Source: an uncultured Lachnospiraceae bacterium (GTDB taxonomy: Bacteria; Bacillota; Clostridia; Lachnospirales; Lachnospiraceae). Taken from it: a stretch of DNA of 21,978 bases. The stretch is taken from positions 1-21,978 of the forward strand of contig CAKRHP010000028.1 in the NCBI GenBank assembly GCA_934339135.1. Direction: 5' to 3'. Both the position numbers and the translations under genes were made by a program. Positions 7,736 to 18,312 of the stretch are shown in pieces. The notes under the pieces are model-generated. The model searched no databases. It was not told the origin of the DNA and worked only from the letters and a program-made list of their open reading frames with translations. Position 1 is the stretch's first letter; every line of letters begins with the position of its first letter.

Positions 7736-9814
7736 TTATTCCCGGCTATACTGTAAAGAGGTTACCTCTCCCGAAGACAGGCTGTACAGATAAGTTCCCT
7801 TGACCGCTACATTATCCTCCGCACTCGCTGCAAAATTAATCTTTAATGTATCATTATCCGCAATCTCCATCAAAGAATAGACAACGGCACCGTTTTTTTC
7901 CAGGGTAATATCATCGGAAGCACCATATTTTTGAAAAATCTTTTGCAATGCTTCATTTCCATTTTGTGGCCGGTAACACATTGTCGCATCTTTTACATCA
8001 TACAGTGAAAATGTCCTGCCATCCGTTCCATTATAAGTTAGCAATGCATATCTTTTCTGGTCCTTGTCCGAAGGCGCCCACTGCAGGTCTAAATAATACC
8101 CTTCCACATCTGTTATGGTTTTGGTCCCGGTCCGCTGATCCAGCCCATCCGGATTGATCCTTATCTTTTTCACCGAAAGACCCCCGTTATCCTGCTTGCT
8201 GACCGATACATCCATCACTTCTTTATCCTCTTTATCCGTGAGAGAATATTGCGTCTGTGATTCCTGTGTTTTTTCATTTTCCTCACTCCGGCGCTTTTCC
8301 AGCTGCTCCTCCGTCATATCCTGCTGCTCATACTCCTGCCTCAGCGTGTTCCAGACATAATAGGATGTCACACCATTCTCCGTCACCGTAATGACACCGC
8401 CTGCTCCCTGCACATAGGATAGCACCAGAGAGCCCTCCTGTAATGCCGTAACCTGCTCAAAATGAATTGCCGGACTGACTGCCTCCAGCTTGTCCTTTTT
8501 TATATTGATAATGTAGTAGTCATATCCTGTTTTCTGGTTTTGTACTGTCTTCTGTCCAATAGCAATTTCTTTATCACCATCTTCATTATAATCCGCAGCC
8601 TCCAGGGAAACATTTTCATTAAAACATAAGGTCTTTCGATCAGAAAACACATTGTCCAGATCAAGTGCGGCCGCCTGCTTTCCCTGGGTATCCTTCAACT
8701 GAAGCCGGCATATTCCCTGATATCCTTTTCCCTTCTGATATGTTCCCTTAGACAGCACCAGCTCCAGCCGGAAGGCACTGCCGCTGGATACCTGCACATC
8801 ACTGCCTGCAATAACACGATCCGTCACATTTCTCGCCTGATCACTGTTAAAAAGATTCTCCGATGCCTCTTCATTTGCCACTCCACCATGAAAAGCAGAC
8901 AAAACAAATGCCCAGAAAATAAATAATGTCACGAGAAACGCCCCAAGACTATTCTGCCATAAAGATCTTTTTTTCAAGTACAAAAGATTTTCTGCCCGTC
9001 GGGATAAATTCCCCTCATAGCTGCTCATTAACGAAAGCGATATCTTACGTTCATCACCTTTTTTCATATTGGCCAGCACCTGAGCACACCGGGTCGGCTC
9101 CATCCCTGTTCTTTTCACAAATGCTGCGTCACATGCCCCATTCTGGTCACACCAGAACAAATAATATGCCAGCCAGATTCCCGGATTCCACCAATGGATG
9201 CAACATACCAGAAAGGCAATTCCTCTCCACAGATCATCTCTGCGCCGTCTGCGTAACTGTTCAAAGGAAATAATCTCTTTCATTTCCTTTGCCAGAAGTC
9301 CCTCCGGCAGGTAAATCTTTCCTCTGCCCAGTCCGGTTCTCACTGGAAAGGCAAGCAGATCTGACTGATATATCCGGTCAAATAGACACTGGGAATTCTG
9401 TTTCAGTTTCTTCTGAATCCTCATCTGCTTCCCTATTGTCCCAAGAAACAAAAGCACCATTCCTCCAATCCAGATCAGCGCACAGACCTGATACGTCCGG
9501 GATGCCCTGAGACTTCCCAGAAATACATATCGCCAACTGGTCAGCAGTCCATGATCCGGCAATATCTGAAGTCCCAAAGAACGCAGCAAAGTATGAAACT
9601 GCCGATTCCATGGTTCGTACAGACAAACCGGACTGCTCATTCCCAACGGACAGACTGCTCTCAAAAACAAAGCTCCCCATAATGCCAGAATAGTCCCTCC
9701 GGCATGTCCACGAAACAAAAGGCGTAAAAGCAGTACCACCGGAAGCAGCACCAACACCATACAGCTCATGGAAAAAACGGTATAAAATAACTGATACAAA
9801 ATATCCATAATCAT
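7736..9814 (-). CDS. BlaR1/M56-family membrane protein with degenerate protease site
   Basis: The protein has 692 residues from ATG 9814 (MIMDILYQ; AAAGG 8 bases upstream; ATG 9808 also possible). The N-terminal half has four or five membrane helices and the M56 layout. It includes the IYLPEGLL approach, the position normally HELAH (here FEQLR, 184-188), RRDDLW, HWWNPGIWLAYY, and the position normally REXACD (here DQNGACD, 223-229). Both zinc-binding histidines and the third ligand Glu are missing, so proteolysis is not expected. A last membrane helix (about 292-312) leads to an extracellular region of about 380 residues with beta-rich stretches and one charged, Glu/Gln-rich segment, not recognised. 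Active relatives cleave BlaI-type repressors; no BlaI gene is present here. It may be a ligand-sensing or scaffolding pseudoprotease. Confidence 0.82.
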   Translation of the reverse strand: MIMDILYQLFYTVFSMSCMVLVLLPVVLLLRLLFRGHAGGTILALWGALFLRAVCPLGMSSPVCLYEPWNRQFHTLLRSLGLQILPDHGLLTSWRYVFLGSLRASRTYQVCALIWIGGMVLLFLGTIGKQMRIQKKLKQNSQCLFDRIYQSDLLAFPVRTGLGRGKIYLPEGLLAKEMKEIISFEQLRRRRRDDLWRGIAFLVCCIHWWNPGIWLAYYLFWCDQNGACDAAFVKRTGMEPTRCAQVLANMKKGDERKISLSLMSSYEGNLSRRAENLLYLKKRSLWQNSLGAFLVTLFIFWAFVLSAFHGGVANEEASENLFNSDQARNVTDRVIAGSDVQVSSGSAFRLELVLSKGTYQKGKGYQGICRLQLKDTQGKQAAALDLDNVFSDRKTLCFNENVSLEAADYNEDGDKEIAIGQKTVQNQKTGYDYYIINIKKDKLEAVSPAIHFEQVTALQEGSLVLSYVQGAGGVITVTENGVTSYYVWNTLRQEYEQQDMTEEQLEKRRSEENEKTQESQTQYSLTDKEDKEVMDVSVSKQDNGGLSVKKIRINPDGLDQRTGTKTITDVEGYYLDLQWAPSDKDQKRYALLTYNGTDGRTFSLYDVKDATMCYRPQNGNEALQKIFQKYGASDDITLEKNGAVVYSLMEIADNDTLKINFAASAEDNVAVKGTYLYSLSSGEVTSLQYSRE

Positions 9815-9974
9815 CCTGCATTCCTTTCTCCCGCCCACAACCCCCCGGACATAACTACAAACTTTCTTCTTTCGTCAGACAACAGCATTATCATAACACA
9901 ATTCTTTTCTCCGGAAAACACCCACTTCTACCGTATATCTCATCTGCAGTCAAACGGCTCCTTCCGGAGAATGA

Positions 9975-11985: not shown

Positions 11986-12078
11986 ATATTTATAGTGATA
12001 AAAAATATATAATGAAATATATTCTAAATAAAACGTGTAAGATCTTATATGATCTCATACACAGAAGCGAGGATTCTT

Positions 12079-13032
12079 ATGGATAATATTATTGAAAATA
12101 ACGTAAATGACATCGTCGATACCATCTTAAACGATTACACCCATGACCGCTCCATCGACAAAATGAAACTATTTACCCAGCCGGACCGGTTTGTGATCAT
12201 CAAGATCATTGAAAATCTGATGAAAATTATGTATCCGGGTTATTTCCGGGATACTTCCCACAAAATATATATCATGGAAAACAGTACACGCGTTCTGATC
12301 GAGGATACCTTGTTTCGTCTGAATAAACAGATCGAGCTGGCATTGAAATATTCTCCGGACTACGAAAATGCCGATGACTGCGAACTTCATGTAGAAGCAC
12401 AGCGTCTGACTGTGGCATTTTTCCACACATTACCTAAGGTTCGTGCTCTTCTGGAAACCGATCTGCAGGCTGCTTTTGACGGCGATCCCGCAGCCTACTC
12501 CAAAGAGGAAGTAATTCTATCTTACCCGGGACTTCAGGCAATCACGATCAACCGCCTCGCCCATGAACTGTTTTTGCTAAATGTGCCTTTGATTCCACGT
12601 ATCATGACAGAATATGCACACAGCACCACCGGTATTGATATTCATCCCGGTGCCACCATTGGAGAATACTTCTTTATCGACCACGGAACCGGCATTGTCG
12701 TTGGAGAAACTACAACAATCGGAAAGAATGTTAAGATTTATCAGGGTGTTACGCTGGGTGCTCTCTCTACCCGCGGTGGTCAGAAGCTCCAGGGTAAAAA
12801 ACGCCATCCTACGATCGGTGATAATGTTACCATCTACGCCGGCGCCTCCATTTTGGGTGGAGACAGTATCATTGGTGAAAACTGCGTGATCGGAAGTAAT
12901 GTATTTATTACTACATCTATCCCTGCCGGCACAAAAGTAAATATTAAAAATCAGGAATTAAAATATCATCAGGGTCAAAAGACAGTGAATGAACCTGTAG
13001 ATCCGGATGAAACCTGGTTTTATATTATTTAA
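12079..13032 (+). CDS. cysE: Serine O-acetyltransferase (EpsC/CysE-type)
   Basis: The protein has 317 residues from ATG 12079. That start is preferred because GCGAGG lies 8 bases upstream, whereas the ATG 30 bases earlier has no Shine-Dalgarno. An alpha-helical N-terminal domain (about 1-170) includes YPGLQAITINRLAHEL. A left-handed beta-helix of hexapeptide repeats follows (about 190-285). It has GIDIHPGATIGEYFFIDHGTGIVVGE, containing the catalytic His/Asp region and acetyl-CoA site, then VKIYQGVTLGALS and the KKRHPTIGDNVTIYAGASILGG loop. The enzyme makes O-acetylserine from serine and acetyl-CoA, the first step of cysteine synthesis. The C-terminal tail ends WFYII, a terminal Ile as expected for binding cysteine synthase. 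It belongs to the long, clostridial/Bacteroidetes subtype. Confidence 0.93.
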   Translation: MDNIIENNVNDIVDTILNDYTHDRSIDKMKLFTQPDRFVIIKIIENLMKIMYPGYFRDTSHKIYIMENSTRVLIEDTLFRLNKQIELALKYSPDYENADDCELHVEAQRLTVAFFHTLPKVRALLETDLQAAFDGDPAAYSKEEVILSYPGLQAITINRLAHELFLLNVPLIPRIMTEYAHSTTGIDIHPGATIGEYFFIDHGTGIVVGETTTIGKNVKIYQGVTLGALSTRGGQKLQGKKRHPTIGDNVTIYAGASILGGDSIIGENCVIGSNVFITTSIPAGTKVNIKNQELKYHQGQKTVNEPVDPDETWFYII

Positions 13033-13060: not shown

Positions 13061-13106
13061 AAAAAGCTTCCCATATTCCGGCTCTGGATATGGGAAGCTT
13101 CTTTTT
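13061..13106. terminator. Strong bidirectional intrinsic terminator
   Basis: AAGCTTCCCATAT (13064-13076) and ATATGGGAAGCTT (13088-13100) form a perfect 13-bp stem with an 11-base loop. It is followed on the plus strand by CTTTTT and on the minus strand by TTT then AAGG. It separates the serine acetyltransferase gene from the convergent anti-sigma gene and can serve both. Confidence 0.95.
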
Positions 13107-13157: not shown

Positions 13158-14102
13158 TCACCTATCCGTCAGATACTGATAATATTTTCCATTCTTTTGT
13201 TCAATCTTTATTTTCCCTTTGATCTGTTTCCCTGTATCCTTATTTTCCTTTATAACAGTGATAGAAGGCATGGCCGTTCCATGCTTCATATCCGAAACCA
13301 CAATAGAACATCCGATCTGTGTGCCTGATGCACAGGTTATCTTAGACTTTGTGTTCCCTTGCACAGTAATCTTTTTCTGTGCCGTATGGTTCCTGGCGAT
13401 CAATTCCATGGATAATCCAGAAGCTTTTAGTTGATATCTTGCCGTATCCCCTGTTGTCCCAAACTGTAATGTAAACTGTACCCTTTCATTTTCCCCTTTT
13501 CCTGTAATATTAGTAGGAAGAAGTTGTCTCTCTCCTGCCTGAAGTTGTTCTCCCTCCTGCTCTGAGACCCCGATAGTATCCCGGCTATCTGACTTTGCTG
13601 CACCGACAGTGCCCGCTTCTCCTCCACTAGAATCCTTTTCCTTCCCCTGAACGATTCCCTCGTTTTTCGAATCCCCCAGACTTTCCTTTTGGCCACTCTC
13701 TTTTTGGACATCGGAACTTTCGGTATTTTGATCCTGAGGGTCAGAATCTACATATTTCGTTGCATCCTCACCTGTTCCGAAAGCCATGCACCAGATATCC
13801 AGTTTCTCCTCCGACACATCCTTTGCCTGATCATTTTCCTTTAAGGCTGCCTTTTCTTCCGTCTTATCTATGTCTGCCGTCTGCTTTTGTAAGAATGAAC
13901 GATCACTTCCATGTAGCACAACAATACATAAGATGGCTGCCGCTGCCAGGCCACTTAAAACCTCTATGCGATGTCTCCGTTTCCGCTTCTGTTTCCCCTT
14001 TATTTCCTCAAAATCCAGAGCATCACAGATCATCTGCTCCGGCAGCTCTCCAATGGCATCTGCTATCTGCTCTGCCCTTTTGTTTGTATCTTGTTTTTTC
14101 AC
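13158..14102 (-). CDS. Membrane anti-sigma-like protein of the serpin operon
   Basis: The protein has 314 residues starting at GTG 14102, whose GTGA overlaps the TGA of the upstream sigma gene by 4 bases. AAGGAGGCGG lies 10 bases before it, and this overlap indicates translational coupling. The N-terminal cytosolic part (1-50, with EQIADAIGELPEQMICDAL) fits the short helical segment seen in ECF-linked anti-sigma/regulatory proteins of Lachnospiraceae. A single membrane helix spans about 53-70 (VLSGLAAAAILCIVVLHG). The long extracellular part is Glu/Gln/Ser/Lys-rich and low in structure up to about 195, then a beta-rich module of about 110 residues. No zinc-type anti-sigma motif is present. 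The role as regulator of the adjacent sigma factor is inferred from position and topology. Confidence 0.72.
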   Translation of the reverse strand: MKKQDTNKRAEQIADAIGELPEQMICDALDFEEIKGKQKRKRRHRIEVLSGLAAAAILCIVVLHGSDRSFLQKQTADIDKTEEKAALKENDQAKDVSEEKLDIWCMAFGTGEDATKYVDSDPQDQNTESSDVQKESGQKESLGDSKNEGIVQGKEKDSSGGEAGTVGAAKSDSRDTIGVSEQEGEQLQAGERQLLPTNITGKGENERVQFTLQFGTTGDTARYQLKASGLSMELIARNHTAQKKITVQGNTKSKITCASGTQIGCSIVVSDMKHGTAMPSITVIKENKDTGKQIKGKIKIEQKNGKYYQYLTDR

Positions 14103-14659
14103 AGATAAACCGCCTCCTTCTCCAGCCATCCCTTCAGATCCTTACGCATTCGGCTGAGTGTTGACCGTACAGTCCCCTCTCTCATTCCAAGTTTCTCTGC
14201 AATCTCCTTCGTGGGCATCATATAAAAATACCTCTGCAAAAAGATCGCCCGGTTTCTCTCCGACTGCCGGTTTAAAAATTTTGCAATGCTTGCCGACAAT
14301 TCCTTAAGCTCGATCTGTTCCTCTACTGTTCTGCCATCGGTAACGCAATCCTGTAATTCTTCCAAAGCAATATCCACACTGTTTCCCCCTCTTCGTGCTG
14401 TATGCATATGTCTGTATCTGTTTAAAGACAGATTTCGAACGATCTTTGCCAGAAATCCCGGCAATACCGCCGGTCGTTTCGGAGGAATGGCATTCCATGT
14501 CTGAAGCCATGTATCATTGACACATTCCCTGGCATCCTCCTCGTCATGAACAATCCGATAAGATATACTATGACAATAGTTATTATATTTATCGGATAAT
14601 CCTTTCAACCCCTGTTCTTTCCGCTCCCAGATCATCTGAATAATTTTCTCGTCTTCCAT
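14099..14659 (-). CDS. ECF-type RNA polymerase sigma factor (serpin operon)
   Basis: The protein has 186 residues from ATG 14659 (GGAGAAG 6 bases upstream; an ATG at 14671 is possible). Sigma region 2 covers about 20-85, with ISYRIVHDEEDARECVNDTWLQTWNAIPP and the FLAKIVRNLSLNRYR segment. Region 4 covers about 120-180, with AIFLQRYFYMMPTKEIAEKLGMREGTVRSTLSRMRKDL, a clear helix-turn-helix for -35 recognition. Regions 1.1 and 3 are missing, as in ECF factors. It starts 35 bases after the serpin stop codon and overlaps the anti-sigma gene. The operon promoter should lie upstream of the serpin, so if the factor is autoregulated, it would also drive the serpin. Confidence 0.9.
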   Translation of the reverse strand: MEDEKIIQMIWERKEQGLKGLSDKYNNYCHSISYRIVHDEEDARECVNDTWLQTWNAIPPKRPAVLPGFLAKIVRNLSLNRYRHMHTARRGGNSVDIALEELQDCVTDGRTVEEQIELKELSASIAKFLNRQSERNRAIFLQRYFYMMPTKEIAEKLGMREGTVRSTLSRMRKDLKGWLEKEAVYL

Positions 14660-14694
14660 ACACTTCTCCATACGGGCACATCCCCTCTTTCCGG

Positions 14695-16179
14695 TTACTC
14701 AATCCGACTCACTGCACCTACAAACAATGGTGCTCCCTGATCGTCTGACAACATCATAATGAAAGGCCGGTTGCACTTCATTTTCATCTTTATGTCCGGA
14801 ATCATCATTGATTCCTTTATTGTAATCTCTGTATAGGATGCCACACTACAGCCATTCTCGTCAACCTTTACCGCCCCTGCCTGTCTTGCCTGGCTTACAT
14901 AGAGATCCGGCTCCGATGTCTCTTTTCCATTCTCCTGCCAGGTGCGCCCAAAATCTGCTTTTTCCGTCTGGAACGCATCCTTAATCCCCATTTCCTGCAG
15001 CATCGGGATCAGATCCATATCAGACTGAAATTGAAGCTTTGGTAAGGACAGCTTGACAAGACCCTGCTTCCACTTTGCGCATTCCGGATCACACAGTTCT
15101 ATAATATCTTTTATATTCTTTGCACTGCTCATCTGATCAAAGGCTGCTCCCTTCCTTGGAAGAACCAGCGTCATCCGTGTATTCTTCATAGGAATAGATA
15201 CTGCTTGAAAGCGTTTATTCTCCATGCATAAACCACTCCAGGAGGTATTCATAAAATCACAAGTCACCTTATCCAGCTTTTCCTCCTCTGTGGTATTTCC
15301 ACAGGTATAATAATTACGTCCATAAAATGTATCCTCTCGGGTGTCCTTTTGGTCAAATACCTGCTCTTCCCATTCATCCTTAAAATTTGCAGCGGACAAA
15401 AGCATCATTGCCATATCCGCCTCTGTTTTAACATTAGAAGAAATCTCCTTTCGAAGCTTCCCTCCTGTCTGATGATCCAGCCACTTCTGTATCTTCTTAT
15501 CAAAAGCCGGATCTCCCATTCTGCCGGAATCGCACTCTGCGTAATAACTGTTCTTCAAAATATCTGTCATACTATCCGAAAAATCATACCGGTCACTAAA
15601 CCAGACCGAATTTCCAAAAGAGCAGACACCGGAAGCCTCTTTGCCATACAGCCACTGTGATGTCTGCCGGATCATCGTCTGCCGTCTGTCCCCCCGTTTC
15701 TTTTGCTCCTCAGAAGAAACGCACATATGATTCTTTACCGCTGTCTCTTCATCCAGACCGCCCAGTCCATCCTGCAGCTGCTGCCTCGTCTCCCCATCAC
15801 TCATCTCCGACAACATTCCCAATGCCATATAAAGATTTACCGGAGAGTACACTACCGCCCCCTGTCTGGGATTCTCGCCCCAGTTGAGCTGTAAAAATTT
15901 CGAAATGGATGTCTCACAATACGCCTGATAGTGCTTTTTAAAATCAGATTCCGTGATTTCATCTTCATCATTTACACTAATGTCCGTCCCACGTTCACTC
16001 CCGGCAGAATCCACGGATGTTGATCTGCCTCCTGCTTCTTCCGGAACCGCAGTCTCCTTCCCCAACACCACACCTCTGCCTTTCAGACCGGTTCCCGATG
16101 CCCTGCCGCATCCTGCCGCCCCGATCACGGAAAGTACCATAAGTAATGCCAAAACCCGCTTTCTCCTCCAATGCTTCAT
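14695..16179 (-). CDS. Serpin-family lipoprotein (serine/cysteine protease inhibitor)
   Basis: The protein has 494 residues from ATG 16179, with a GGGGG ribosome-binding site 8 bases upstream. A lipoprotein signal (RRKRVLALLMVLSVIGAAGC) puts the lipidated Cys at 24, so it is anchored on the outer face of the membrane. A low-complexity spacer to about 85 is followed by a serpin fold of about 400 residues. Recognisable parts are YSPVNLYMALGMLSEMSDGETRQQL (helix A/strand 6B region), AANFKDEWEEQVF, and the C-terminal CNRPFIMMLSDDQGAPLFVGAVSRI. The reactive-loop hinge reads VDENGCSVASYTE rather than the usual NEEGTEAAAAT. The C-terminal strand and length are complete. Serpins trap proteases irreversibly; gut bacterial relatives inhibit host serine proteases. 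It is first in an operon with sigma and anti-sigma genes. Confidence 0.9.
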   Translation of the reverse strand: MKHWRRKRVLALLMVLSVIGAAGCGRASGTGLKGRGVVLGKETAVPEEAGGRSTSVDSAGSERGTDISVNDEDEITESDFKKHYQAYCETSISKFLQLNWGENPRQGAVVYSPVNLYMALGMLSEMSDGETRQQLQDGLGGLDEETAVKNHMCVSSEEQKKRGDRRQTMIRQTSQWLYGKEASGVCSFGNSVWFSDRYDFSDSMTDILKNSYYAECDSGRMGDPAFDKKIQKWLDHQTGGKLRKEISSNVKTEADMAMMLLSAANFKDEWEEQVFDQKDTREDTFYGRNYYTCGNTTEEEKLDKVTCDFMNTSWSGLCMENKRFQAVSIPMKNTRMTLVLPRKGAAFDQMSSAKNIKDIIELCDPECAKWKQGLVKLSLPKLQFQSDMDLIPMLQEMGIKDAFQTEKADFGRTWQENGKETSEPDLYVSQARQAGAVKVDENGCSVASYTEITIKESMMIPDIKMKMKCNRPFIMMLSDDQGAPLFVGAVSRIE

Positions 16180-16210: not shown

Positions 16211-16256
16211 GATGCGTTTGATAAAACACGGTAATTGTTCCACAAAAAAACGCATC
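16211..16256. promoter_or_regulatory. Inverted repeat upstream of the serpin gene
   Basis: GATGCGTTT (16211-16219) and AAACGCATC (16248-16256) are perfect complements separated by 28 bases and lie 30-80 bases upstream of the serpin start. This could be a leader stem-loop or paired operator half-sites. No convincing sigma-A promoter was found here; a GGAAC element on the minus strand lies inside the loop and may be an ECF-type -35. Confidence 0.4.
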
Positions 16257-16331
16257 TACCTATATAGACACGTTTTTTTCAAAAATGCTGCAATAAATAT
16301 GCAAGATTCCATCCACCGATGTTTACTATCT

Positions 16332-16637
16332 TTACATTCGAAACCATACCTCCTGCGGTATGTTCGCTGCAAGCCAGTCTGCCCCCGCCATACACATGGA
16401 AAATCCTGTCAAAAGAAACAATATAATGATCGCAGCAAAATCATATTTTCCTGCTTTGTCTGATGCCAGACAGGTATAAAATAATATTTCTATCCCCAGA
16501 CCGATCAAAATCAACGGCCATAAATGAAAGATTAATTCATAATTCAAAAAACCTCCAAAGATATGTACCAAAAACAGTACACCGAATACTATCAGGCAAA
16601 CTCCCATGGTGATCGTTCCAATCCTGCGTTCTCTCAT
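16332..16637 (-). CDS. Small membrane protein, LiaI/LiaF transmembrane-region-like
   Basis: The protein has 101 residues with three hydrophobic segments (about 8-28, 34-52 with YELIFHLWPLILIGLGIEIL, and 68-86). The pattern of a Gly-rich first helix followed by WPLILIGLGI is typical of the LiaI/LiaF-like DUF5668 transmembrane region. These proteins occur in envelope-stress systems. The ATG overlaps the stop of the upstream gene (ATGA), with GGGAGAGAGG upstream, so the two are translationally coupled. It is the last gene of the four-gene ECF unit. No terminator was seen after it. Confidence 0.75.
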   Translation of the reverse strand: MRERRIGTITMGVCLIVFGVLFLVHIFGGFLNYELIFHLWPLILIGLGIEILFYTCLASDKAGKYDFAAIIILFLLTGFSMCMAGADWLAANIPQEVWFRM

Positions 16638-17185
16638 TCGTCCTCTCTCCCTTCCAGATATTTATCATCGTCATCCTGCAGATCTGATTTTTTGCCAAGG
16701 ATCATTTTAATACCAAGTCCAATGATCAAAAAGGAGATCAGCATCTGTGGAATATAACGGGTCAGGATCCGGCTCAGCTCATAAGAAAGATAAATGCCGC
16801 ACTGTGCCATAATTGCCACCACATCATTTCCCAGCAGATAAATTCCAAACAAGATCAAAAATACGGCTGCAAATTTTTTGCCCTTACCCACGGATAATTT
16901 GGGCAGCTCCTGTACATTTTCCAACAATACATAATGATCCTCCAATGCCGCAAACTCTTCATCCGGCATGGAATTTTTGTTGATCGCATCAAAAAATGCG
17001 TAAAACCAGACAACGATCGCCAGCAGGCCAAGCACATCCACATACAGCCAGCTTGATAATACCAAAACTCCGATAAAGAGCAGCATCAGACTGACCCCCT
17101 CCTTAAAAAGTCCCAGATACATCTGTCCCGCTCCCGGAATACAGGATAAAATAAATGTCATAAATTTTCCTCTTTTTCGCTTCAT
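16634..17185 (-). CDS. Polytopic membrane protein, TM2-like N-terminus
   Basis: The protein has 183 residues from ATG 17185 (AGGAGG 6 bases upstream; an ATG 10 codons earlier precedes the ribosome-binding site). Residues 8-60 (SCIPGAGQMYLGLFKEGV, then hydrophobic helices and VVWFYAFFDA) match the TM2-domain pattern of two helices linked by G.G..YLG. About 95-160 adds two more helices, and the C-terminus is acidic (DDDDKYLEGREDE). No catalytic motif is visible and the function is unknown. It lies 49 bases after the anti-sigma gene and overlaps the LiaF-like gene, so it is a member of the sigma-linked unit. Confidence 0.75.
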   Translation of the reverse strand: MKRKRGKFMTFILSCIPGAGQMYLGLFKEGVSLMLLFIGVLVLSSWLYVDVLGLLAIVVWFYAFFDAINKNSMPDEEFAALEDHYVLLENVQELPKLSVGKGKKFAAVFLILFGIYLLGNDVVAIMAQCGIYLSYELSRILTRYIPQMLISFLIIGLGIKMILGKKSDLQDDDDKYLEGREDE

Positions 17186-17234
17186 AATGATCCTCCTAAT
17201 TTCCAATATTTTCAAAATTATACGTTAAATAAAT

Positions 17235-17774
17235 TTATTGCTTCTTTTTCTGAAACCAGTTACTGATGTCCCACTTGCTTTCCTGCTGCTTTTTTTCTAC
17301 AAATTTTTCTCTCTGCTCCTTCTGTTTCTGCTTTTCCTTCGCTAACTTCTGTTGATAAGCAAGCTTTCCGGAGTCTTGTTTTGATATGATCTTCTCCGGA
17401 TCGCACTTAGAACCTGATGTATCCAAGCCGGAAATGATATGTGGCTGTGCCGTTATCGGCAGCCCCCGGTCTCCCTGAAAATTCACTGTCACCATAAGCC
17501 CCAGCGCCATACAGACTCCCAGTGCCACTCTGGTACAATACCGGTAATATTCTCTCTGTTTCTGCTTCCGGTCAGGAATCTTTGCTGCTTTCTCCAAAAT
17601 CCCTGCCGTTACTCCCCGAGGCAGCGATATCATTTCCACCTCTGGGAGTCCTGACGCCAGCCTTCCGGCACAGTATTCGCACTGTGCTGCATGCTGCAAT
17701 AATTCCATTTCTTCCTTTGCAGCCAACTGATGCTTATAATATTTTGTGATCTGCTGATCCGTAATATGTGCCAT
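17235..17774 (-). CDS. Zinc-finger anti-sigma factor
   Basis: The 179-residue protein begins MAHITDQQITKYYKHQLAA and carries HAAQCEYCAGRL at about 28-39. This is the H..xCxxC part of the zinc-associated anti-sigma (ZAS) fold. A membrane helix (about 84-100, VALGVCMALGLMVTVNF) is followed by a lysine/glutamine-rich helical extracellular tail of about 80 residues with a strongly charged coiled-coil look (about 140-179). It is 13 bases after the sigma gene, so the two should be made together. The family holds ECF sigma factors at the membrane until a signal releases them. Confidence 0.83.
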   Translation of the reverse strand: MAHITDQQITKYYKHQLAAKEEMELLQHAAQCEYCAGRLASGLPEVEMISLPRGVTAGILEKAAKIPDRKQKQREYYRYCTRVALGVCMALGLMVTVNFQGDRGLPITAQPHIISGLDTSGSKCDPEKIISKQDSGKLAYQQKLAKEKQKQKEQREKFVEKKQQESKWDISNWFQKKKQ

Positions 17775-17787
17775 AATGCGCCTCCTT

Positions 17788-18312
17788 TCATGGTCTGACC
17801 ATCTTTAGTCCCAGTTTTTTCTGAAGCATTTTCTTTGCTCTTAAAACCTGTGTCTGTACTGTCTTTAATTTGATCCCCTTCTGCTCTGCGATCTCCCGCG
17901 CGGTCCTGTCGCAGCAATAAAATTCGTAGGCAATCTGCCCATAGGGAGGTTTCAGGTCGCGGCACGCTCTCGCAAGCTCCTCCTTCACTTCCTCCTCCAG
18001 GAACCGTTCCTCCGGTGATGAAACCGTCCCGGCTCTGCTTTCCAGCACTTCCGACTCCGAAGGCATTTCTTTTCTTCCTTTTTGCTTCAAAAAATCCAGA
18101 CATTTGTTCGTCGCAATCTTTGTCAAAAATGCTTTCTCATTCTGTCCGTCAAAGCGGTCCAGAACTTTGTAATATGTAAGAAATGTTTCCTGTGTCGCAT
18201 CCTGCGCCTCAAAATAATCACCCACCATACGATAGCAGATGGAAAAGATCAGCCTCTCATATTTTTCCAGGGCTCTCTCCAACTGCGCTGTCTGTATGGA
18301 ATTGTCCGTCAA
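17788..18312 (-). CDS. ECF-type RNA polymerase sigma factor (first gene of second unit)
   Basis: The protein has 174 residues starting at TTG 18312. AGGAGGTGATGAGAC precedes it at proper spacing, and the ATG within that element is out of frame, which supports the TTG. Region 2 covers about 12-75 with YERLIFSICYRMVGDYFEAQDATQETFLTYYKVLDRFDGQNEKAFLTKIATNKCLDFLK. Region 4 covers about 110-165 with REIAEQKGIKLKTVQTQVLRAKKML. It heads a unit of sigma factor, anti-sigma, TM2-like and LiaF-like genes, which looks like an envelope-stress response. A sigma-A-type promoter is visible, so expression may not depend only on itself. Confidence 0.92.
   Translation of the reverse strand: MTDNSIQTAQLERALEKYERLIFSICYRMVGDYFEAQDATQETFLTYYKVLDRFDGQNEKAFLTKIATNKCLDFLKQKGRKEMPSESEVLESRAGTVSSPEERFLEEEVKEELARACRDLKPPYGQIAYEFYCCDRTAREIAEQKGIKLKTVQTQVLRAKKMLQKKLGLKMVRP

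Follow-up and report, generated by a model that had tools for sequence, protein, structure and literature searches.

The window analysed here is a stretch of 21,978 nucleotides from an uncultured Lachnospiraceae bacterium (assembly GCA_934339135.1, contig CAKRHP010000028.1). Its minus strand carries, in transcription order, a serpin gene (16179-14695), a gene for an extracytoplasmic function (ECF) sigma factor (14671-14099) and a gene for a membrane anti-sigma factor (14102-13158), which together form a compact run. A preliminary description, made from the letters of the window, had placed these genes on the minus strand and treated them as one operon-like run; the placement was borne out by family matches and coordinates, and the sequence supports the run as a compact series of genes. 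The four bases GTGA (14102-14099) are indeed common to the sigma and anti-sigma genes, as had been claimed. The reported serpin-to-sigma gap of 35 bases holds if the sigma factor starts at ATG 14659, but shrinks to 23 bases if translation begins farther upstream at ATG 14671, the candidate start with the better-placed ribosome site (GAGGGGA). The run comprises the following features.

14695..16179, minus strand: serpin lipoprotein, 494 residues (PF00079, E 1.4e-54)
16108..16179, minus strand: signal peptide and lipobox ending at Cys24, from sequence
14773..14853, minus strand: reactive centre loop region of the serpin, Gly443 (P15) to Cys469, with hinge GCSVASYTE
14099..14671, minus strand: ECF sigma factor, 190 residues (PF04542, PF08281 and TIGR02937, all above cut-off)
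13158..14102, minus strand: anti-sigma factor, 314 residues, GTG start (profile of the anti-sigma domain of fused serpins, E 7.7e-6)
13962..14102, minus strand: cytoplasmic anti-sigma domain, residues 1-47, conserved and matched by the profile (AlphaFold2 helices with predicted local distance difference test, pLDDT, below 50)
13905..13961, minus strand: single transmembrane stretch, residues 48-66, a hydrophobic run after KQKRKRRHR, judged by eye
13551..13904, minus strand: outside linker, residues 67-184, of low complexity and variable length (alignment, AlphaFold2)
13785-13802, minus strand: conserved LDIWCM segment, residues 101-106, within the otherwise variable linker
13167..13550, minus strand: conserved outside beta domain, residues 185-312 (AlphaFold2, conservation)

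Products of the three genes

The serpin was assigned to its superfamily by domain and fold, AlphaFold2 giving a complete serpin with an unresolved loop (residues 448-459 with pLDDT below 50). Its lipobox Cys24 is invariant in all 19 aligned serpins. The hinge reads Gly at P15, Cys at P14, Ser at P13, Val at P12, Ala at P11, Ser at P10, Tyr at P9 and Thr at P8; unlike the inhibitory-serpin consensus ExGTEAAAA (PMC8233489; here and below, the cited papers were drawn on in part), it is GCSVASYT, and its Val P12 and Tyr P9 deviate from that alanine-rich pattern. Within the window's clade the hinge G-C-S-V/M-A-S-Y-T is kept in 26 of the 27 anchored sequences, the loop beyond being variable, and on account of this conservation the hinge is probably used. 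Cysteines 186, 293, 307, 363, 444 and 469 are also conserved among relatives of the serpin, one being hinge P14 and one lying directly after the loop; they possibly form disulfides, the protein being exported and the bacterium a likely anaerobe.

The sigma factor has sigma2 and sigma4 regions (PF04542, PF08281) and no sigma3 family was listed for it, as expected of the ECF type. The third protein had no Pfam or NCBIfam match at E 0.001; it was classed as an ECF anti-sigma factor because its gene adjoins the ECF gene with the GTGA overlap, its N-terminus matches the domain profile and it has one hydrophobic stretch, and from these sequence features it would bind and hold the sigma factor. The zinc-binding anti-sigma class I motif Hx3Cx2C, as given in PMC7406223, is not found in residues 1-47. 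Pfam domains of the RsiV/RsiP type and the RsgI domain were likewise not found in the protein at E 0.001, which places it in neither the RsiV nor the RsgI family. Sensor kinase and response regulator families were absent from the 18 window open reading frames (ORFs) scanned, which argues against a serpin under two-component control of the Bifidobacterium breve type.

AlphaFold2 gave pLDDT below 50 at residues 21-97 and 110-182 of the anti-sigma factor; block means for residues 181-312 were 69-89, but 50-60 at 231-250. Foldseek of the outside domain against the PDB returned no match at E 0.001. The preliminary description of a protein poorly structured up to about residue 195 therefore agrees with most of the pLDDT values, but not with a conserved short strand at about 101-109. 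Close homologues have 267-324 residues, and the length of the tail varies among relatives. IWCM (residues 103-106) is present in all 16 close homologues, and also in the relatives L001 and L002. The LDIWCM segment could be either one strand of the beta domain or a site of recognition. In the preliminary description, the outside linker was put forward as a possible protease bait, cut directly by attackers. The mostly low pLDDT and the variable length of the linker would suit a bait, and IWCM could be its recognition or cleavage site. However, AlphaFold2 models IWCM as a short strand (103-106), which could make it part of the beta domain; the motif is absent from L003 despite the same gene order, and the fused relatives described below carry a serpin at the place of the bait. 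We regard the bait as improbable.

Serpin-sigma linkage and fused proteins in relatives

The search for co-occurrence and order of the three genes, advised in the preliminary description, was run on genomes, and the link was found to recur and to be conserved in relatives. A scan of genome contigs yielded 13 loci with a serpin relative. A sigma gene of the window type lies directly downstream of the serpin in L001, L007 and L003 (Butyribacter intestini TF01-11), and directly upstream of it in L011, L012 and L013; the ECF gene downstream in L004 is of another type, and these searches detected none in L005, L008, L009 and L010. Locus L006 (9782-13930, plus strand) holds three tandem serpin genes with hydrophobic N-termini, another ECF pair following 439 bases after the last.

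In a tree of 208 serpins (L002 left out, L017 too short, L004 labelled B), the window falls in a starred (96) set of five rows with L001, L003, L004 and L007. All five have an ECF gene downstream, that of L004 being of another type, and six serpins without a window-type sigma gene (from L005, L006, L008 and L009) join them in the next larger starred set (99). Judging from this distribution, the serpin-sigma link belongs to the window's clade and not to its sister group.

PF00079 matches were found in 124 of 392 genomes of one order and in 165 of 391 genomes of a class sample. The order sample comprised 157 distinct serpin ORFs in 138 loci. Thirteen of them have a sigma gene overlapping directly upstream, and 12 of these match the anti-sigma-domain profile (L144 weakly), L043 being without a match. 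Another eight stand third in the series sigma gene, domain-bearing gene, serpin (with one more gene between in L161), two are in the window's gene order after removal of L182, one (L177) has the domain with no sigma gene seen, and three are further serpins behind a fused one. L182 had been counted as linked by the script; its partner was YlxM-like by eye and the locus was moved to the unlinked ones. Two other candidates for the window-type link were set aside: the downstream sigma factor of L004 resembles that of the window's second ECF operon, and L017, which also has a sigma gene downstream of its serpin, has a neighbour that starts like a zinc-type anti-sigma factor. In the class sample, L208 has a sigma gene 541 bases upstream, with no domain match.

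For the position control, 76 loci (L097-L204) were used in which the serpin is flanked by 2.4 kb or more on either side; they contained 22 sigma ORFs. On the same strand, 12 lay within 60 bases, six at 61-1500 bases and three farther away; a single one was on the opposite strand. Since gene order is kept in relatives and the control shows this concentration, the serpin/sigma/anti-sigma arrangement is confirmed as real and not due to chance. That serpin and ECF pair are mere neighbours without a functional link could be argued from the many unlinked serpins and from the number of ECF genes, 4-22 matches per genome at E 0.001 in 13 genomes picked because they hold the link. Against it stand the fusions, the 4-base overlaps, three recurrent gene orders, the position control and the promoter-like motif treated below, which make it hardly credible.

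In other Clostridia, an anti-sigma N-terminus of the same kind and a membrane helix are fused to a serpin in one protein, and the fused genes mostly overlap the upstream sigma gene by 4 bases. In L011, L012 and L013, the sigma gene is followed by one that encodes, from the N-terminus, a short charged segment (LMGDIDIELIEKAE in L012), a membrane helix and a serpin, the serpin of L013 being truncated where its contig ends. A domain profile was built from the N-terminal 60 residues of 13 fused proteins, with no separate anti-sigma factor included, and run against the N-termini of 8,347 ORFs. It retrieved the separate anti-sigma factor of the window (E 7.7e-6) and those of L001 (2.0e-7), L002 (5.3e-6), L003 (1.4e-3) and L007 (3.9e-3), matched the anti-sigma factors of loci in other gene orders as well, and matched 16 of 16 homologues of the window protein. 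By sequence, the window anti-sigma factor thus belongs with the anti-sigma domains of the fused proteins.

Fourteen fused proteins used as query brought up 3,730 matches; among the best 120, the domain was present in 119, for which the query itself selects, and a hydrophobic stretch in 120. P0102, the only one of these without the domain, has a lipoprotein-like start. The domain is also carried by 16 of 68 homologues of the window serpin; 14 of the 68 (near-copies, chimeras, fragments and long forms) were left out of serpin set A6, from which P0011 and P0014 (a likely chimera) were excluded. In a search of the class sample with the fused-protein profile, matches from the first profile positions occurred in at least 4 of 391 genomes (at least five genes). 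Among the fused genes so found, those of three loci other than L011 show the 4-base sigma overlap in two cases, and L250 has no sigma gene within its flank. The label 'fused' changes 13 times on the serpin tree, at least nine of the changes (gains or losses) falling on starred branches, and the fused form is accordingly rare per genome but scattered over the tree.

Among the fused proteins within the best 120 of the 3,730 matches, small residues occupy P12-P10 in 117 of 118, Gly is found at P2 in 97 of 118, and Ala, Gly, Ser or Thr at nominal P1 in 116 of 118. The Gly at P2 and the small P1 residues suggest an elastase- or subtilisin-like protease as target. Of 19 fused serpins from the loci, 15 could be anchored, all with small hinge residues; the others are L013 (truncated), L011 (with the motif and a short loop), L043 and L176 612-2189. 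L176 (612-5212, minus strand) contains two tandem pairs of a sigma gene and a fused anti-sigma-serpin gene, the hinge of the second serpin not being recognisable. In L043 (697-2856, minus strand), a serpin protein of 719 residues has a hydrophobic N-terminal stretch and a repeat-like C-terminal part; a sigma gene overlaps it upstream and its N-terminus is unmatched by the anti-sigma-domain profile.

A serpin and a sigma factor share one frame in L002 (2-1588), where the sigma factor is of the window's kind, and in P0011. This was rejected as a working fusion, the reactive loop and the serpin C-terminus being missing, and the joining probably results from a deletion. In-frame serpin-sigma joining was seen in Lachnospiraceae metagenome-assembled genome RUG13384 and in a protein cluster of six members.

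Candidate promoter and copies of the sigma subfamily

The preliminary description had noted that ECF factors often drive their own operon, and an ECF-type promoter candidate is in fact predicted upstream of the serpin.

16253..16292, minus strand: predicted ECF promoter, with -35 TGCAGCA (16292-16286), a 16-base spacer and the -10 block GTCTATATAGGTAGATG (16269-16253)

The prediction comes from a two-block model trained on 25 serpin-linked operons, the window and L001 being held out. It converged on TGTAACC, 16-17 bases and GTCATTAAgAGTGAAGG, with a likelihood of 243 vs 62-81 in 10 shuffles, and the five best of 625 blind seeds arrived at the same optimum. Within 160 bases upstream of the serpin the window site scored best, and it ranked 2 of 43,874 window positions, and the L001 site ranked 1 of 42,882; these ranks belong to a final model that uses another register than its predecessor, adds the serpin-first operons L003, L007, L050 and L100, and was chosen after the sequences had been seen. 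Ranks of 11, 78 and 118 were obtained upstream of the window's sigma, anti-sigma and second-sigma genes. Shortening the second block brought the window site to rank 1 of 43,884. The first two-block model, built from 21 sigma-first operons, picked another site in L001 (rank 16) and gave ranks in their own loci of 1 for L003, 9 for L007, 4 for L050 and 4 for L100. The window site was not in the top 8 of an earlier one-block model, and a simple paired-word count did no better than shuffles.

The stretch from TGCAGCA through GTCTATATAGGTAGATGCGTTTTTTTGT is nearly the same in L001 as in the window, despite another ECF pair directly upstream in L001. In G001, the genome of L001, the 17-base -10 block is matched exactly at a single place, upstream of the serpin; matches with at most three mismatches numbered 9 vs 26 for a reversed-pattern control. 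As this single exact match lies upstream of the serpin, no wider stress regulon is seen in G001.

Copies of the sigma subfamily were counted in the 13 genomes mentioned above. In six, the single strong copy (>150 bits) is the serpin-linked one, and the remaining seven have 2 to 9 strong copies; in G002, the single strong copy is the deletion fusion. Twenty loci of non-serpin copies contained no detectable serpin, and in 14 of them the sigma gene is followed by a domain-bearing gene (two weakly) with a different outside part. Since these copies precede anti-sigma genes with other outside parts, the serpin is one among several sensor parts employed by this sigma family, which is therefore not devoted to proteases.

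These copies favour an explanation in which the serpin is only an output that guards surface proteins, the anti-sigma factor sensing a signal other than proteolysis, such as envelope stress or a ligand of the beta domain. It also fits a window serpin that is not fused and an anti-sigma factor with its own conserved outside domain. It sits less well with the promoter block, whose only exact match in G001 precedes the serpin with no wider stress regulon in view, and with the fused label, whose changes on at least nine starred branches mean that fusion was recurrent or long kept and so argue for a sensory part. On balance this explanation appears rather unlikely.

Proposed circuit, known systems and neighbouring genes

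We consider it probable that the three genes make up a self-driven transmembrane signalling unit with a protease outside the cell as likely trigger, and the serpin run is most likely one autoregulated unit. Taking RsiV and the B. breve serpin, which protease induces, as analogues, we propose a circuit in which the serpin is the product and protease attack the signal. The short N-terminal domain of the anti-sigma factor would hold the ECF sigma factor at the membrane. Upon the trigger, likely extracellular protease activity, the sigma factor would be freed, presumably by regulated proteolysis of the anti-sigma factor through steps of cleavage, and would transcribe serpin, sigma and anti-sigma genes from the promoter at 16292-16253, which would make the surface serpin the main product of the circuit. 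We infer protease attack as the signal, best supported by the fused forms with their small-residue hinge. In these, the protein that holds the sigma factor would also be the one to trap a protease cutting the serpin loop, so that use of the inhibitor and release of sigma could be coupled. The fused relatives point to the serpin, rather than to a disordered tail, as the protease-facing part, and suggest that the inhibitor may be the means by which such cells sense an attack by proteases. In the window, the separate lipoprotein serpin would be the output, and perhaps a co-sensor together with the outside beta domain of the anti-sigma factor.

A serpin is consumed one for one, and tying its consumption to the release of the factor that replenishes it would therefore be an economical design. 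It is a serious possibility, although short of a probable one, that the serpin is a single-use protease sensor, trapping or loop cleavage and insertion itself releasing sigma, with the window as the split form and the fused proteins as the one-molecule form. Every consumed inhibitor would then order its own replacement.

Several observations weigh against the proposed circuit. The hinge of the window serpin is unusual (Val P12, Ser P10, Tyr P9), so that inhibition is not assured, and the fused serpin L176 612-2189 has no recognisable hinge. Training sites of the final promoter model fit unevenly, from 8 to 30 bits, and the first two-block model gave the window site 5.9 bits and rank 51. The non-serpin copies of the sigma subfamily count here too. 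The sister group of six serpins lacks a window-type sigma gene, 130 of the 157 order-sample serpins have no partner of the kinds described, and in the class sample none of the 30 best-scoring and none of the 11 picked serpins was clearly linked. Related serpins without a sigma pair, which the preliminary description had held to speak against the operon, are thus absent from the window's own five-row clade but present in the sister six and in the 130 at large.

We know of no ECF partner for the bacterial serpins miropin and tengpin, and no serpin anti-sigma factor was found in the open-licence literature searched. A close parallel is RsiV/sigma V of Bacillus subtilis and Clostridioides difficile, likewise a membrane anti-sigma factor with an ECF sigma factor that drives its own operon, as proposed here. 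The outside part of RsiV is described as binding and inhibiting lysozyme, a host-type enzyme, and so freeing sigma V, which transcribes its own operon (PMC5014341). In that system, however, a domain other than a serpin acts on lysozyme, whereas the window has its inhibitor and its anti-sigma factor as two proteins, the latter without a Pfam family match. PbpP-RsiP-sigma P of Bacillus thuringiensis resembles the window in that a separate attacked protein is the sensor for an ECF/anti-sigma pair (PMC8092216), but with a penicillin-binding protein and beta-lactams in place of serpin and protease. The B. breve serpin is reported to be induced by protease via an adjacent two-component system (PMC8012564); a bacterial serpin is thus encoded beside a signalling system in both cases, that of the window being an ECF sigma factor with a membrane anti-sigma factor. 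RsgI anti-sigma factors of Clostridium thermocellum also form one family with several exchangeable outside sensors (PMC12484212, PMC3413522). In contrast to the window protein, where no RsgI domain was found, their sensors bind polysaccharide, and in the parts of these two papers drawn on, serpins and anti-sigma factors are handled separately.

The role and control of bacterial serpins have been called enigmatic or short of data (PMC8233489, PMC6718151). A serpin physically joined to an anti-sigma domain would give them a concrete role, the sensing and answering of proteases at the surface of gut-type Clostridia. If true, proteases would join lysozyme under the RsiV principle, by which the inhibitor of the attacker is also its receptor, and the irreversible reaction of the serpin would be the switch.

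Beyond the run, a 15-pair inverted repeat lies 3' of the anti-sigma gene, and a second ECF operon (16332-18312, minus strand) directly upstream of the serpin run.

13064..13100, no strand assigned: inverted repeat, possible terminator, scored on the plus strand only and with a short T run on the minus strand
17788-18312, minus strand: sigma factor of the second operon
17235-17774, minus strand: anti-sigma factor of the second operon, with the zinc-type motif HAAQCEYC
16634-17215, minus strand: membrane protein of the second operon
16332-16637, minus strand: LiaI/LiaF-like membrane protein of the second operon

The inverted repeat is possibly a terminator common to the anti-sigma gene and the convergent gene at 12049-13032. 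Farther away, the window carries a BlaR1-type M56 peptidase gene (PF05569) at 7736-9838 on the minus strand.

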